DNA of 29,844 bases from positions 1 through 29,844 of IMG/VR virus record IMGVR_UViG_3300033143_000614; one strand, given 5' to 3'. The notes below the pieces were generated by a model. That model had not been told where the DNA came from. It did not search any database and saw only the letters and a program-made list of their open reading frames with translations. This document shows, one piece after another, positions 3,657 to 10,346 of the stretch (its first letter is position 1; the number at the start of each line of letters is the position of its first letter). Source of the stretch: a virus. Both the position numbers and the translations under genes were made by a program.

Positions 3657-3824
3657 TTATAAATCTTTTATTATCAAATTATTATATGTTGCTACTTCTT
3701 TTATATAATCATCATCAAAATCTAATGTTCCTTTATACCATTGTAATTTGATTTCATTATCCTCGTTAGGTAATATGTATTCCTCTACAAAATTATCGTA
3801 TGATATTCTATGCCATTTATTCAT
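3657..3824 (-). CDS. Small acidic protein downstream of ribozyme 1, 55 aa
   Basis: An ATG at 3822-3824 opens 55 codons of an acidic protein rich in Asp, Glu and Tyr (middle: LQWYKGTLDFDDDYIKEVA). The stop is one base before the start of the DnaA-like gene, giving tight coupling, which supports it as real. The start lies about 20 bases downstream of the 3' end of hammerhead ribozyme 1, so the mature mRNA after self-cleavage would carry the ribozyme core as part of its 5' leader. No known family. Confidence 0.6.
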   Translation of the reverse strand: MNKWHRISYDNFVEEYILPNEDNEIKLQWYKGTLDFDDDYIKEVATYNNLIIKDL

Positions 3825-3844
3825 AATCTAAAATTTAAAAAGTT

Positions 3845-3895
3845 TATGTTTCGTTCTTTTGAACTCATCAGCACGAGTACACACTCGTGGACATA
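3845..3895 (-). ncRNA. Hammerhead ribozyme 1 (type III)
   Basis: Reading the minus strand 5' to 3': stem III strand UAUGU (3895-3891), cleavage base C (3890), stem I of 7 bp (CACGAGU with ACUCGUG, loop GUGU, 3889-3872), conserved CUGAUGA (3871-3865), stem II GUUC/GAAC with AAAA loop (3864-3853), then GAAA (3852-3849) whose last A starts the stem III partner ACAUA (3849-3845). All core nucleotides of a hammerhead are present and the cleavage triplet is GUC. Predicted cut: between 3890 and 3889. It lies between the amidotransferase gene and the 55-aa gene, on the transcribed strand. A related copy at 6533-6587 has different but complementary stem bases. Confidence 0.88.
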
Positions 3896-3896
3896 G

Positions 3897-3952
3897 GAAG
3901 TGTTAGACAAACACTCCCTATTAGTAGGGTAAAAAATAGCAAATCCCCTACT
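3897..3952 (-). other. Hairpin cluster upstream of ribozyme 1
   Basis: Between the stop of the amidotransferase gene and the ribozyme, three short inverted repeats occur: an imperfect GGAAGTGTT/AACACTCCC hairpin (3897-3918), CCCTA-N4-TAGGG (3917-3930), and AGTAGGG/CCCTACT (3923-3929 with 3946-3952). The last two share the TAGGG arm, so they are mutually exclusive. They could steer ribozyme folding or end upstream transcripts, but no clear T-run follows in the leftward direction. Confidence 0.4.
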
Positions 3953-5063
3953 CACCTTTTAGCACTTCCCTTTCATCATACCAAGTATCACACCGGTTAC
4001 AATGATAAGCTCCAAAGTCATCATACTCTAAATCGCAGAAACACATTACACAATAAGGTTTATTATCCTCTTCAAATATATTATCTAAACTATTGTCTGT
4101 CTCCTCTATAATTTTACACTCATCTTTGACTTCACTCCAACCTACTTGTCGGGTGTCGGGTTTCCACGCGGGTGTGTCTCTGTGCAAGTCGTACCCCGTG
4201 TGCCAAAAAGGGCGGACACTTTGTGTATAAGTAGAGTGTGTAGTCATACCCCCAACAAACTCTTTCTTATTAAAATATAGCCAACACTTTAGTGTCCTAC
4301 CCTTATTCATTTTAATCTCCACTTCCTCGCGGAAGTACCAATTAGGGTGTCCTTCCAATTTGTCCAACGAATCAAGGGTAGAGTTAGATACTTTGAACAC
4401 ATCAACATTAACATTCTTTCCTTTCCCCTTTGCTTTTAAAACATAAGGCAATCCCTCTATGATAAGAGGGTACTTGTCCTTTGTCGTTCCATTACCTAAG
4501 TATTTAGAACTTCTTAGGTAGTGGTGGTAGTTACTATGGCTTTTCTTTAGTGTACCATATACGGCTACTAAATTGTCGCGCAATACATTATCTTTAGAGT
4601 ACCATATACCATTTTTATGAGTATACATTTCTCTATTATATATTTGAAAGCTACGAGTCCTAACATTAACAGTGACAAACCTTGATATTTCTTTCTCAAG
4701 TCTTTCTTTCCATTTATGTCTCGGCATATTGCCCAACTGTCGCGCTAGCACTTTACTGTCGCATTCCTTTTGGTTACCCAATCCGTGAATCGTTCCGTTC
4801 ATCATTAAATACTCATCTTTATTATTTCCGCACTGAAAAGGGTGGGTGTTTTCTTTATTCACTTTCCCAATAGTCGCGTATCTAAAATGAGCAATAAAAG
4901 GTCGCTCGGTATATAGTTTTAAATATTCTTTTGATTTATGGTAAGATATCTCGAAAGTATCTAACCAAATAATCCCCAATCCGTGAGGATTAATTTTTGC
5001 AGAAGTTTTTAAGGTTTCTCTTGAAATCTTTTTATCCTTTTGCTTGATAATTATTATACACAT
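3948..5063 (-). CDS. Class-II glutamine amidotransferase fused to gamma-glutamylcyclotransferase, C-terminal zinc ribbon
   Basis: Residues 1-155 match an Ntn-type class-II amidotransferase: Cys2 directly after Met is the expected nucleophile, with HFRYATIG (59-66, Arg61), HPF (74-76), NG (89-90, oxyanion) and CDSKVLA (101-107). This fixes the start at ATG 5061-5063; a frame extended upstream to 5099 would bury the Cys. Residues 164-265 match the GGCT/AIG2 fold: VYGTL (168-172), ELGxLP-like EGLPY (203-207), and LDKLEGHPNWYFREE (233-247) with the catalytic-type Glu237. The end (338-358) has CxxC...CxxC, likely a zinc ribbon. Family chemistry: ammonia release from glutamine and cleavage of gamma-glutamyl amines. 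The neighbouring amidoligase (5520-6509) suggests a joint pathway; the substrate is unknown. Confidence 0.85.
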   Translation of the reverse strand: MCIIIIKQKDKKISRETLKTSAKINPHGLGIIWLDTFEISYHKSKEYLKLYTERPFIAHFRYATIGKVNKENTHPFQCGNNKDEYLMMNGTIHGLGNQKECDSKVLARQLGNMPRHKWKERLEKEISRFVTVNVRTRSFQIYNREMYTHKNGIWYSKDNVLRDNLVAVYGTLKKSHSNYHHYLRSSKYLGNGTTKDKYPLIIEGLPYVLKAKGKGKNVNVDVFKVSNSTLDSLDKLEGHPNWYFREEVEIKMNKGRTLKCWLYFNKKEFVGGMTTHSTYTQSVRPFWHTGYDLHRDTPAWKPDTRQVGWSEVKDECKIIEETDNSLDNIFEEDNKPYCVMCFCDLEYDDFGAYHCNRCDTWYDEREVLKGE

Positions 5064-5519: not shown

Positions 5520-6509
5520 TTAAGTTCTACTTTGTTGTATCATCATTCGCGCTCCTCTAGTGTAGTGTCTGTCGCTACTTTGAGATGGTAACCATCTCAC
5601 AATCTCCTCATTAACTTTATTCTTTACAATCATCTTTCTAAATCCTCGCGCTAGTCTTTTTAACTCATTCACTTTATCTACATCTCCCTCGTACATATCA
5701 AGGAGTATTTGAGTAATGGCATTTAAAAATGTTTCATGTGTCGCTCTAGGCTTATTGATACTAAAGTCTAGTAGAGTATAAAATAACTCGTATCTCCTTT
5801 TTAATTGGTTGACAGATGTTACTCTAGAGGGTATTCTAAACTCTAAACAGTGTCTCTTTGCGGTTGCTAGGTTGTATTTATGATGTCTGTTACTTATGCT
5901 TAAAGCTCCGTTCATTTGCTCATCTGATGTTCGCATACTAGCATTATGTCGGCAATAAGAGTTTTTTAATCTATATCTAAATAAGGCTAGCACTATTCCG
6001 GAGTAATTTCTTACTTTTTTCATCAAATCATCTCCACTCATTCCAACTACCCCAATTGATATATGACCACCACAACCGGCACTACTAGGAGAATACCTAT
6101 CCTCTATTATCCTTTCGGCTTGATGAAACATATTAAAGACCTTATTTCTCCATACACTAGGTTTAACTAGAGGTAATATATTTGTTACCGCTTCATACCC
6201 ACAAGATGAATCTGTTTCGAATCCGGCAAATAATGGGTACTCTCGGACGGCTCCCCTGTGTAATCTCCTTTTTTCTATTTCAAATCCTATTGTAAATTTG
6301 CTAGATATAGAGTCAATATTTTGCGCTTCAGCTATATTTTGTCTATCTGTTACTCTAGTCAAGCCGGCTACATCTACTTTTGAAGCAATATTTAAATCTC
6401 TTATACCTACTCTGCCACTATGATGATAATTTCCCACATAAGCGCGTTCAGTGTTATTTTCATTGAGGTACTCTACCCCCTCTCTAATCATTTTTCTTGT
6501 TAATTCCAT
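5520..6509 (-). CDS. Putative amidoligase (glutamine-synthetase-fold COOH-NH2 ligase)
   Basis: The 329-aa protein shows the ordered motifs of the Amidoligase_2 family: GFEIE at residues 75-79, a FETDSSCGYEAVTNILPL block at 97-114 (Asp and Glu expected to bind metal/ATP), GCGGHISIGV at 145-154 (conserved His), and HCLEFRIPSRVTSVNQLKRR at 220-239 (Glu-Phe-Arg). These enzymes are predicted to use ATP to join a carboxylate to an amine. In other phages and bacteria they are found with class-II amidotransferases and GGCT proteins, exactly what lies at 3948-5063 here. The N-terminal 70 residues are less conserved. Hammerhead ribozyme 2 ends 23 bases before this start, so the mRNA is probably cleaved in its leader. 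The substrate cannot be read from sequence. Confidence 0.75.
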   Translation of the reverse strand: MELTRKMIREGVEYLNENNTERAYVGNYHHSGRVGIRDLNIASKVDVAGLTRVTDRQNIAEAQNIDSISSKFTIGFEIEKRRLHRGAVREYPLFAGFETDSSCGYEAVTNILPLVKPSVWRNKVFNMFHQAERIIEDRYSPSSAGCGGHISIGVVGMSGDDLMKKVRNYSGIVLALFRYRLKNSYCRHNASMRTSDEQMNGALSISNRHHKYNLATAKRHCLEFRIPSRVTSVNQLKRRYELFYTLLDFSINKPRATHETFLNAITQILLDMYEGDVDKVNELKRLARGFRKMIVKNKVNEEIVRWLPSQSSDRHYTRGARMMIQQSRT

Positions 6510-6532
6510 TTGCTATTTTTTTAATTTAATTA

Positions 6533-6587
6533 ACTCTGTTTCTGCCTTTTGGCTTCATCAGTACCGGTACACACCGGTAAACAGAGT
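6533..6587 (-). ncRNA. Hammerhead ribozyme 2 (type III), amidoligase leader
   Basis: Minus strand 5' to 3': stem III strand ACUCUGU (6587-6581), cleavage base U (6580), stem I of 7 bp (UACCGGU with ACCGGUA, loop GUGU), CUGAUGA (6561-6555), stem II with GCC/GGC and AAAA loop, then GAAA and the stem III partner ACAGAGU ending at 6533. Predicted cut between 6580 and 6579, triplet GUU. Loop I and loop II are identical to those of ribozyme 1 while the stems differ by compensating changes. One weak point: positions 10.1 and 11.1 are an A-A mismatch instead of the usual G-C. The amidoligase ATG is 23 bases downstream. Confidence 0.82.
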
Positions 6588-6604
6588 ATCTTTAAAGACA
6601 CTCT
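6583..6604. repeat. Dispersed palindrome, copy 4, overlapping ribozyme 2
   Basis: AGAG plus TATCTTTAAAGACACTCT: 11-bp arms with one plus-strand mismatch, which becomes a G-U pair in leftward RNA. The 3' arm in that RNA (ACUCU) is also the 5' strand of ribozyme 2 stem III, so the two folds compete. Confidence 0.85.
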
Positions 6605-6610
6605 TATTTA

Positions 6611-7249
6611 TTACACCTCTATTAAATTTCTGTTATGCTCTGTAATTAAATGGTCTTTTAATCTAGTAGCATACACAATAAACTCCTCTACATCTGATAA
6701 ACTCATATTTGTATTAAAAATAGGCTCTTGATTATCTCCTGATATTTTAGCTTTTTTATCTCCCATTTTTACCTCAAGTAGTACATTTGGTCTAGTCCTT
6801 ACCTCTGCGCTATCTTCTCCACTCTCAGCTGTACTGCTTGCGCTGTCATTCGCGTATTTTAAGGCATTCTCAAGGCTTCTAGACACATTCTCCCCTTGCG
6901 ACTCTAGGCGCGTACATTCTCTCTTAAATCGCGTGATAACCTCTGTTTGCTCCTCTGCTACTGTGCCTAATTTAACCATCTTGTAGAAATACGACTTTTT
7001 CCATCCGAAAATTTTATTTCCGAATTGCTCCGCGTTCATACTTATACCGGCTATCCTCATTTCTTCCTTTCCACTATCTGAATTAAACCAATTAAATGAT
7101 TTATACACCTCTTTTGATAGCTTAACAGTAGTATCAAATTTAGCCTTCTTACTGTCTGTTAATGTGGTTAATAATCCGTTGATTCTGTTAAAATTAACGC
7201 GACTGCTTCCACTGAAAAAATCGCGTTCCATATCTAATAAATTTCTCAT
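6611..7249 (-). CDS. Hypothetical protein, 212 aa
   Basis: Unknown function. Residues about 35-110 are helical with a FGWKKSYFYKMVKLGTV segment (about 79-95), which could be the recognition part of a helix-turn-helix-like domain ('Fg-s-s-yYkm-k'), followed by a charged helix and a Ser/Ala/Glu-rich linker (about 130-150). The C-terminus (about 160-205) looks like a small beta-hairpin plus helix. A DNA-binding or plasmid/replication-associated role is possible but not shown. It begins 23 bases after the 97-aa gene and ends 6 bases before a dispersed palindrome and ribozyme 2. Confidence 0.68.
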   Translation of the reverse strand: MRNLLDMERDFFSGSSRVNFNRINGLLTTLTDSKKAKFDTTVKLSKEVYKSFNWFNSDSGKEEMRIAGISMNAEQFGNKIFGWKKSYFYKMVKLGTVAEEQTEVITRFKRECTRLESQGENVSRSLENALKYANDSASSTAESGEDSAEVRTRPNVLLEVKMGDKKAKISGDNQEPIFNTNMSLSDVEEFIVYATRLKDHLITEHNRNLIEV

Positions 7250-8735: not shown

Positions 8736-10346
8736 ATGAATCAACAAGGTTACTCACCAAAGGATTTATTCTTTGGGACTAACGGGCGAGAGAAGCTTGT
8801 TAGTGGAATAGATAAAATTGCAAACGCAGTTAAAAGTACATTAGGACCCCGTGGAAATACGGTCCTTATAGAATCACCTAATCATACACACGGAATCACA
8901 GTTACAAAAGATGGAGTCACAGTTGCTAAGTCAATTAGCTTAATGGATGCTGTGGAAAATTTAGCAGTACGTATTATGAAAGAAGCGGCAGATAGAACCG
9001 CATCTTCTGCCGGGGACGGCACAACCACCGCCATTGTTCTTACTGAAGCGCTTGTAAAAAGTGGTATAAAGAATATTAAGGATGGGGATAATGCTACTGA
9101 GATATTTAAAGAAATGGTAAATGTTACCAATGATATTGTAAAGAAATTAAAGGCGCAAAGTAAAGCGGTTAACAAAACTACTTTAAAGCACGTAGCTACT
9201 ATATCTGCAAATAACGATATTAAAATAGGAAAGATAATATCTGAGGTATATGGAAAGGTAGGAAAGAATGGAATAGTGACCGTGGAAAAATCCCAAAGTG
9301 CCGACACATACTTCGAGAGTACAGAAGGGATAAAAATAGACCGCGGTTACTCTTCTAACTTATTTATTAATAACCATAAGAAAGATGATTGTGTACTTGA
9401 GAATGCTCACGTACTTGTGTCAGATGCAGAGATTAGTAACATACTTACTATAGAGAATGTGTTAAAACCAATTATACAAGAAGGAAAAAAATTACTAATC
9501 ATCGCTCCCGTGTCTGCTAATGTTTTAAATACTTTAGCCGCTAACGTAATGAAGAACGGTTTAAAGCTTTGCGTTATTCAACCACCAAACTTCGGATGGA
9601 AACAACACGAGCTAATGCAAGACATTGCATTGTCTGTAGGCGCTACTTACTTCTCAGAGAAAACGGGAGACGATTTAAGTATTATAGAATTTAAAGACTT
9701 AGGGTTAGTATCTAAAGTAATTGCATCTAAAGACTCTACTATACTACTTAGTACAGAAGATAGAGAAGTTGAAGGAGTAGATAAAAGAGTTAAGGAATTA
9801 TGGGAAGCTCACGATAATAATACTAACAAAATAGAGAAAGAGTTTATTATGTCACGTATAGCTTCGCTTACAGGAGGGATTGGAGTTATATATGTAGGGG
9901 GTAATACAGACCTTGAGCAAAAAGAGCTTTACGATAGAGTAGATGACGCGGTATGCGCCGTTAGGTCTGCTATGACAGAAGGAATTCTACCGGGCTCAGG
10001 ACTTGCCCTATATAATATTATAGATGAGTTAGAATTAAAGGATGAATATTCTGCGTCGCAAAAAATCGCTTACGCGATTTTAAAGGATGCTATGTCAGCA
10101 CCTATTAAACAAATCTTAAAAAATGGAGGATTAGAACTTTCTACTATTTACAATACTATACAGGGATTAGATAAAGGTTATGGTTATGATTTAAAAAGCG
10201 AGACTTATGGGGACTTAATTAAATTAGGAGTTATAGACCCCGTGAAAGTTACTAAGAGTGCTTTACAAAATGCTGTGTCAGTAGCTGTAACCATATTAAG
10301 TACAAATGCCATTGTAACTATGGCTCGTTCAATTGAAACAAAATGA
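8736..10346 (+). CDS. groEL: Chaperonin GroEL, phage-encoded
   Basis: A 536-aa Hsp60 subunit. Nucleotide-binding motifs are intact: TLGPRGNTV (35-43), TKDGVTVAK (57-65, Asp59) and AGDGTTTA (92-99, Asp94, matching the catalytic Asp87 of the E. coli protein). The equatorial segment DDAVCAVRSAMTEGILPGSGLAL near residues 405-427 keeps the Asp and the glycine-rich turn. The protein ends in ARSIETK and lacks the flexible GGM repeats of cellular GroEL. It heads an operon with a secreted protein and groES, linked by 4-base ATGA overlaps. Phage chaperonins usually help fold capsid or other phage proteins. It is long, intact and clearly diverged, so it is not a recent copy of a typical host gene. Confidence 0.95.
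   Translation: MNQQGYSPKDLFFGTNGREKLVSGIDKIANAVKSTLGPRGNTVLIESPNHTHGITVTKDGVTVAKSISLMDAVENLAVRIMKEAADRTASSAGDGTTTAIVLTEALVKSGIKNIKDGDNATEIFKEMVNVTNDIVKKLKAQSKAVNKTTLKHVATISANNDIKIGKIISEVYGKVGKNGIVTVEKSQSADTYFESTEGIKIDRGYSSNLFINNHKKDDCVLENAHVLVSDAEISNILTIENVLKPIIQEGKKLLIIAPVSANVLNTLAANVMKNGLKLCVIQPPNFGWKQHELMQDIALSVGATYFSEKTGDDLSIIEFKDLGLVSKVIASKDSTILLSTEDREVEGVDKRVKELWEAHDNNTNKIEKEFIMSRIASLTGGIGVIYVGGNTDLEQKELYDRVDDAVCAVRSAMTEGILPGSGLALYNIIDELELKDEYSASQKIAYAILKDAMSAPIKQILKNGGLELSTIYNTIQGLDKGYGYDLKSETYGDLIKLGVIDPVKVTKSALQNAVSVAVTILSTNAIVTMARSIETK

Follow-up and report, generated by a model that had tools for sequence, protein, structure and literature searches.

Two type III hammerhead ribozymes, each part of a compound module, appear to act as punctuation in the polycistronic mRNA of a phage operon that encodes an amidoligase and a GATase/GGACT protein. 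We assign this reading a probability of about 0.7. The window (the entire analyzed stretch of 29,844 nt, IMG/VR record IMGVR_UViG_3300033143_000614) holds both motifs on its minus strand (Table 1). Self-cleavage, the chemistry of the resulting ends, and any effect on RNA stability are inferred; all loci are metagenomic, and no cleavage, transcript, or other RNA data exist for any member of the family. A preliminary description of this DNA had identified the first hammerhead in the leader of the amidoligase gene. The second hammerhead, the hairpin abutting stem III, and the near-constant presence of such ribozymes in the operon were absent from it.

The motif at 6533-6587 is confirmed as a real type III hammerhead by sequence and structure, with its activity remaining an inference. 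Stem III is formed by ACUCUGU (6587-6581) and ACAGAGU (6539-6533), giving 7 bp that include U16.1-A15.1. Stem I pairs UACCGGU (6579-6573) with ACCGGUA (6568-6562) under a GUGU loop (6572-6569), and the core consists of CUGAUGA (6561-6555) and GAA (6542-6540). Stem II reads A-GCC-AAAA-GGC-A (6554-6543) and places an A.A apposition at 10.1/11.1. With U6580 as nucleotide 17, the scissile bond is predicted at 6580/6579. The 55-mer folds with a z-score of -3.75, and none of 200 shuffled sequences folded equally well. Every element named in the preliminary description is thus present, and a type III hammerhead in the amidoligase leader remains the best reading. Its statement that the GUU triplet ends 23 bases before the ATG was wrong: the end of the motif, in stem III, lies 23 nt from the ATG at 6509, and the predicted cut falls 70 nt before it.

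Both window copies fulfill the requirements for a hammerhead core (C3U4G5A6N7G8A9...G12A13A14, here CUGAUGA with GAA(A)), for A15.1-U16.1 beside an NUH site (GUU in hammerhead 1, GUC in hammerhead 2), and for three stems of which I and II are looped and III is open (7 bp, 3-4 bp, and 5-7 bp, respectively). The G10.1-C11.1 pair, nearly universal in type III hammerheads but not absolute, is met in hammerhead 2 and unmet in hammerhead 1. Cleavage of hammerhead 2 is predicted between 3890 and 3889.

Table 1. Coordinates of the ribozymes, hairpins, genes, and tRNA-like elements; locus handles precede positions outside the window.
Feature	Position	Strand	Basis
Hammerhead 1, type III, GUU cleavage site, A.A at 10.1/11.1	6533..6587	-	manual reading, fold, relatives
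Hairpin AGAGUGUCUUUAAAGAUACUCU, upstream of hammerhead 1	6583..6604	-	
Amidoligase gene (predicted at fold level; glutamine-synthetase-like), 329 aa, next gene downstream of hammerhead 1	5520..6509	-	
Gene P0002 of unknown function, 212 aa, 5' of hammerhead 1	6611..7249	-	
Hammerhead 2, type III, GUC site, G-C at 10.1/11.1, GUGU and AAAA loops as in hammerhead 1	3842..3897	-	
Hairpin GGGAGUGUU-UGUCU-AACACUUCC, flush with stem III of hammerhead 2 (3896/3895)	3896..3918	-	
Glutamine amidotransferase-like (GATase) / gamma-glutamyl cyclotransferase (GGACT) gene, immediately upstream of hammerhead 2	3948..5063	-	
55-aa ORF, start 18 nt past the stem III end of hammerhead 2	3657..3824	-	
tRNA-like element	L203 3103-3148	+	T-arm descriptor
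Further tRNA-like elements after the amidoligase stop	L196, L222, L225, L226, L238, L258, L259, L261, L339		

A scan of the window against Rfam gave no match at the gathering threshold. The preliminary description had proposed a covariance-model search of the minus strand among its checks and the lack of a match as one possible refutation. That condition was literally met, and the verdict on the motif therefore rests on its relatives. Hammerhead 1 was reported under the type II model RF02276 alone (15.3 bits, E=1.6, over the motif stretch). Against RF00008, hammerhead 2 reached 25.3 bits (E=0.0025) and the G001 copy 41.6 bits, below the cut-off of 48.5. The gathering score is a database threshold and no biochemical criterion. 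At this threshold, hammerheads were missed in 10 of 10 loci with clear copies, which scored up to 78 bits with a covariance model of our own (R1). The curated models RF00008 and RF02276 are therefore too narrow for the hammerheads of phage amidoligase operons. Applied to the window, R1 gives exactly two full matches, both on the minus strand (6532-6587 and 3842-3897); the two copies were among its training sequences, and these scores are not independent evidence.

Evidence from relatives leaves almost no room for a chance resemblance to a hammerhead, a reading supported only by the missing gathering-threshold match. A search pattern built on hammerhead 1 set the core, the GUGU/AAAA loops, and the stem lengths (20 fixed bases) and left the stem sequences free. 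It matched at least 120 IMG/VR stretches, and a control pattern with a scrambled core (CTGTAGA) matched none. Of 139 sites, 136 had the unconstrained stem I fully paired (7/7). For 76 distinct sites that were aligned, 95.9% of cells were paired versus 66.7% in shuffles, double changes amounted to 404 cells versus 121.5, and the covariation score was 0.826 versus 0.240, with slid versions reaching at most 0.117. U16.1-A15.1 was invariant across these sites. In the amidoligase-locus set, loops I and II, the partners of a possible tertiary contact in type III hammerheads, were conserved as GUGU/GAGU and NAAA with stem lengths fixed at 7 and 4. The strand bias and the link to one locus, described below, likewise contradict coincidence. 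Counts throughout are inflated by related contigs and are not independent observations. The pattern also occurs in 43 stretches from GTDB genomes (L151-L193), nearly all of which fold as hammerheads. Many of these stretches are in Patescibacteria MAGs and many have an upstream hairpin; the Patescibacteria copies could be phages of those bacteria or mis-binned phage contigs.

The A.A apposition had been named in the preliminary description as a possible weakness. The apposition recurs in nature: 14 distinct hammerhead folds have it, usually together with U at position 17, although it may still slow cutting. Across 107 distinct sites, positions 10.1/11.1 are essentially G-C, U.U, or A.A. C17 occurs with G-C in 50 of 51 cases and A17 with U.U in 29 of 36, and U17 is combined with A.A (8), U.U (8), or G-C (2). 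The association is weaker in the amidoligase set, yet it exceeds all 5000 shuffles. The case for a universal coupling was weakened, as G-C accompanies all three triplets among the GTDB matches. What still stands is a tendency of U.U and A.A appositions to occur without C17 in most cases. A U10.1-U11.1 mismatch has already been reported (PMC3088659), and the accessible portion of that paper on core variation makes no mention of the A.A apposition or of a coupling between nucleotide 17 and 10.1/11.1.

The gene downstream of hammerhead 1 had been called an amidoligase on the strength of motifs, and this assignment (a COOH-NH2 ligase) holds at the level of the predicted fold and not through sequence models. 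No sequence match was found in Pfam (including PF12224), PHROG, or PDB. An initial AlphaFold model from 10 sequences (pLDDT 60) was too poor and was replaced by one from 53 sequences with a pLDDT of 89.1. Foldseek aligned this model to the glutamine-synthetase family in PDB, including gamma-glutamyl-methylamide synthetases, at E of about 2e-4 and with low TM-scores of about 0.3. Many phage models labeled 'amidoligase enzyme' also matched, with E from 7e-7. The catalytic-type motifs G-x-E-x-E-K, D-x-S-C-G-x-E, C-G-G-H, and E-x-R are invariant. The genomic setting expected of an amidoligase, an operon shared with glutamine amidotransferase and gamma-glutamyl cyclotransferase domains, is fulfilled: a GGACT partner is encoded in 42 of 42 genomes tested, and the window GGACT gene also gives weak GATase matches.

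A direct scan returned no relatives of P0002, and neighbor clustering placed P0002 relatives before hammerhead and amidoligase in L011 and L082. No DNA-level match between the window and a phage isolate was found. Relatives of its portal protein belong to phages of Flavobacterium, Cellulophaga, Maribacter, and Tenacibaculum, from which the host is probably a flavobacterium. A GroEL-like chaperonin (Cpn60_TCP1) is encoded at 8736-10346 on the plus strand. In several related loci, ordinary tRNA genes precede the amidoligase by about 1.5 kb on the plus strand (L201 1444-1517, L212 1323-1560, L197 1467-1540, L256 1455-1528).

The hammerheads occupy a constrained position relative to genes. Among 108 distinct sites, the next ORF lies on the same strand in 96 and on the opposite strand in 5. 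The stem III end precedes the ATG by a median of 21 nt (IQR 18-23), and the motif follows the upstream stop by a median of 29 nt (quartiles 26 and 35). Neighbor clustering identified the amidoligase as the commonest gene directly upstream (16), followed by GATase/GGACT (10); an amidoligase directly downstream occurred in three cases, including the window. A set of 80 phage amidoligase loci was then retrieved by protein alone, so as not to condition on the ribozyme. R1 found 125 matches in 72 of the 80, all on the amidoligase strand. A hammerhead lay directly 3' of the amidoligase in 70 loci, 9 of which also had one directly 5', and 25 of 29 protein clusters at 70% identity contained a hammerhead-bearing locus.

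Whole contigs gave the same picture. Among 44 contigs (2.56 Mb), 39 carried hammerheads, and all 82 copies were on the amidoligase strand. Seventy-seven lay at most 4 kb from the amidoligase, and two others exceed this distance merely through the opening point of the contig, if the genome is circular. Since the seed alignment derived from ribozyme-bearing loci, the search was repeated with amidoligases lacking an adjacent ribozyme as seeds. In this second set, 64 of 80 amidoligases were still hammerhead-adjacent with only 1.5 kb of flank; the two sets share contigs. The window arrangement, with a hammerhead directly after the GGACT gene, occurs in 19 of 41 genomes. In this operon the hammerhead is nearly constant, and it follows the amidoligase more often than it precedes it. 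Five database records whose phage amidoligase/GGCT loci are more distant have no hammerhead, which limits the link to the subfamily of the window amidoligase. No cultured phage was found that combines a close relative of this amidoligase with a hammerhead. The single annotated relative, MW202828.1, has none. Its amidoligase bears an N-terminal extension of roughly 230 aa within a 574-aa gene, and GTGTCGTTAACGACAC hairpins stand at successive gene junctions (L003 about 1980-2005 and 2271-2296; L004 and L130 cover the remaining record). The 574-aa gene suggested that the hammerhead had split a fusion of an upstream gene and the amidoligase. This idea was discarded, as the hammerhead lies 3' of the amidoligase in most loci.

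The amidoligase to GGACT block of the window lies exactly between its two hammerheads (6579-3890), whose predicted ends would be ligatable in principle. Paired cleavage could then excise the block for ligation into a circular RNA, or the ribozymes could belong to a retrozyme-like mobile element. We consider this very unlikely. RtcB was not found in 42 genomes, which led us to reject circularization through a phage RtcB, and many loci have a single hammerhead only. Hammerhead positions are fixed to the junctions of a single operon rather than scattered like insertions, and apart from the hairpin their flanks have nothing in common. Perreault et al. sought circular or spliced products of their hammerheads and report none (PMC3088659).

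Punctuation of the transcript is further supported by the hairpin that precedes the ribozyme. Mean fold z-scores are -2.71 for the 50 nt that precede the cut and -0.16 for a stretch 100 nt further upstream. An explicit search found a hairpin at 83 of 109 hammerhead sites versus 6 of 109 in the control stretch, and at 88 versus 10 of 96 sites in the amidoligase set. In most cases the 3' arm stops 5-7 nt short of the cut, flush with stem III.

At hammerhead 1, this 3' arm overlaps the outer part of stem III by 5 nt, and an inner hairpin of 6-7 bp is compatible with a stem III of 4-5 bp. Plain folding of the motif with its flank favors the full 9-bp hairpin (-24.6 kcal/mol) over the full hammerhead (-20.4), with a compromise at about -21.3. 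Given the shared nucleotides and this preference, cleavage of hammerhead 1 may be partial, slow, or regulated, so that it cuts slowly or only under some conditions. Extended to the family, the overlap would make each site a cut/uncut switch in which hairpin and stem III compete for one strand and tune amidoligase expression. An overlap of 3 or more nt does recur at 18 of 83 hairpin sites, but it is only 0-1 nt in 40 of the 83, and at hammerhead 2 likewise. In about half of the sites, then, hairpin and hammerhead can both form, as they can at hammerhead 2. Both ribozyme loops are tetraloops and no aptamer domain is present, and a regulated ribozyme is in our judgment unlikely.

The hairpin might also be unrelated to the ribozyme and reflect a palindromic DNA site, for instance an operator or promoter, with the hammerhead serving its 5' side only by providing a 5'-OH leader. 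The 16-bp palindrome GTGTCTTYAAAGACAC occurs 7 times in the window versus 0.5 expected (1627, 3250, 5084, 6586, 7835, 21340, 28521), both within and between genes. In the 80 amidoligase loci, only 68 of 303 copies of GTGTC-N6-GACAC precede a hammerhead-type CTGATGA within 70 nt. This dispersal of the core without hammerheads means that the hairpin may have a role at the DNA level. Against a purely DNA-level explanation, hairpin stem sequences vary by lineage. Hammerheads of other lineages have stems of unrelated sequence, many with UUCG or GNRA loops, at the same distance from the cut, which argues for an RNA structure. We regard the palindrome explanation as improbable for these reasons, and retain the compound module of hairpin and hammerhead.

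Loci without a ribozyme provide the strongest argument that RNA cutting is what selection keeps at the junction. Within 140 nt of the amidoligase stop, a T-arm with a TTCRANY loop is present in 8 of 10 ribozyme-less loci versus 0 of 70 ribozyme-bearing ones; in the second locus set, the figures are 9 of 14 versus 0 of 64. Several of these elements comprise a 7-bp acceptor-like stem, a short linker, and the T-arm, without D and anticodon arms. In L203, L226, and L261, a hairpin stands just before the element, in the position it occupies before the hammerhead. The elements were identified by descriptor only, and ARAGORN did not detect them. The L238 T-arm matches the tmRNA model (E=0.0002), and a weak full-length match of L238 to mascRNA RF01684 (13.8 bits, E=2.3) is a lead and not a membership. 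Acceptor-T-arm helices are minimal RNase P substrates, and processing of these elements by RNase P is inferred. A different paired element, ACCACAGATACCTCACTTCAGAAACGGAGTGAGGATTTGGTGG, occurs in L205 (about 3961-4010, plus strand) and in L331. It stands at a junction with neither a hammerhead nor a T-arm, has no convincing Rfam match, and is possibly a third cleavage device.

These observations are compatible with a broader proposal, to which we give slightly better than even odds. The junctions would form a conserved RNA-processing socket that combines the hairpin with an interchangeable cutter, usually a hammerhead and in other cases a reduced minihelix of tRNA-like form to which host RNase P is recruited; the unidentified element in L205 might be a third type. 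Unrelated cleavage devices would have replaced each other at one site, and phages would obtain mRNAs that are capped by a hairpin and individually stable, with no need for terminators or promoters.

For the hammerhead modules, the order is stop codon, stable hairpin, abutting hammerhead, an AU-rich leader of about 21 nt, and start codon. Transcription would run through the operon junction, the hairpin would form first, and the hammerhead would then fold and cut 5' of stem I. Hammerhead products carry 5'-OH and cyclic phosphate ends. The upstream mRNA would retain the hairpin a few nucleotides from its new 2',3'-cyclic-phosphate 3' end and, in the manner of a terminator hairpin, could resist 3'-to-5' exonucleases. 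The downstream mRNA would begin with a 5'-OH flush with the 7-bp stem I hairpin, which may hinder 5'-end-dependent decay, and the loss of stem III would free the leader for translation. Hairpins are known to protect 3' ends, and 5'-terminal stem-loops and 5'-OH ends slow decay. One transcript would in this way give rise to separate mRNAs, each separately stable.

Hammerheads close to phage genes have been on record since 2011 and their function was never settled, in part because the genes around them seemed random. The link of a large family to a single operon, with fixed distances to stop and start codons, an abutting hairpin, and a tRNA-like substitute, makes punctuation into mRNAs with protected ends testable. 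It also indicates that standard Rfam annotation misses an abundant phage ribozyme family, and it supplies a natural data set on the mutual constraint of the 10.1/11.1 pair and the cleavage-site nucleotide. No paper naming both a hammerhead ribozyme and an amidoligase was found in a search that lacked most subscription journals and preprints.

The closest relatives among known systems are type III hammerheads (RF00008, clan CL00010), with which the present family shares the CUGAUGA...GAAA core, A15.1-U16.1, a GUH site, and an open stem III. Unlike RF00008 members, hammerheads of the amidoligase operon score far below the gathering cut-off. They also differ in having stems I and II of fixed length (7 and 4 bp), GNGU/NAAA tetraloops, the abutting 5' hairpin, and a 10.1/11.1 position (G-C, U.U, or A.A) that is coupled to nucleotide 17. 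The tRNA-like elements invite comparison with mascRNA of MALAT1 (RF01684), a eukaryotic case in which a tRNA-like element marks the 3' end of the upstream RNA and RNase P forms that end. Theta ribozymes of gut phages are self-cleaving, reside in phage genomes, and are tied to RNA processing, but they represent another, HDV-like class associated with phage tRNAs, according to the accessible part of that report (PMC10879173). HHphage of the haloviruses HF1/HF2 lies a few nucleotides before the start codon of an early gene, with an mRNA 5' end mapped near the cut (PMC3088659). It differs in its high-salt-tuned core variant, its archaeal virus, and its helicase gene. Perreault et al. (2011) found several hammerheads flanking prophage or bacterial genes or blocks, proposed a role in processing long transcripts, and observed cleavage of those flanking prophage genes in vitro and in E. 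coli (PMC3088659). By that paper's account gene identities are not constant, whereas here one operon is. Its main text, as far as available, describes neither an abutting hairpin nor a tRNA-like replacement. Hammerheads flanking prophage genes were thus already known, and the fixed amidoligase socket, the abutting hairpin, and the tRNA-like replacement appear to be new.
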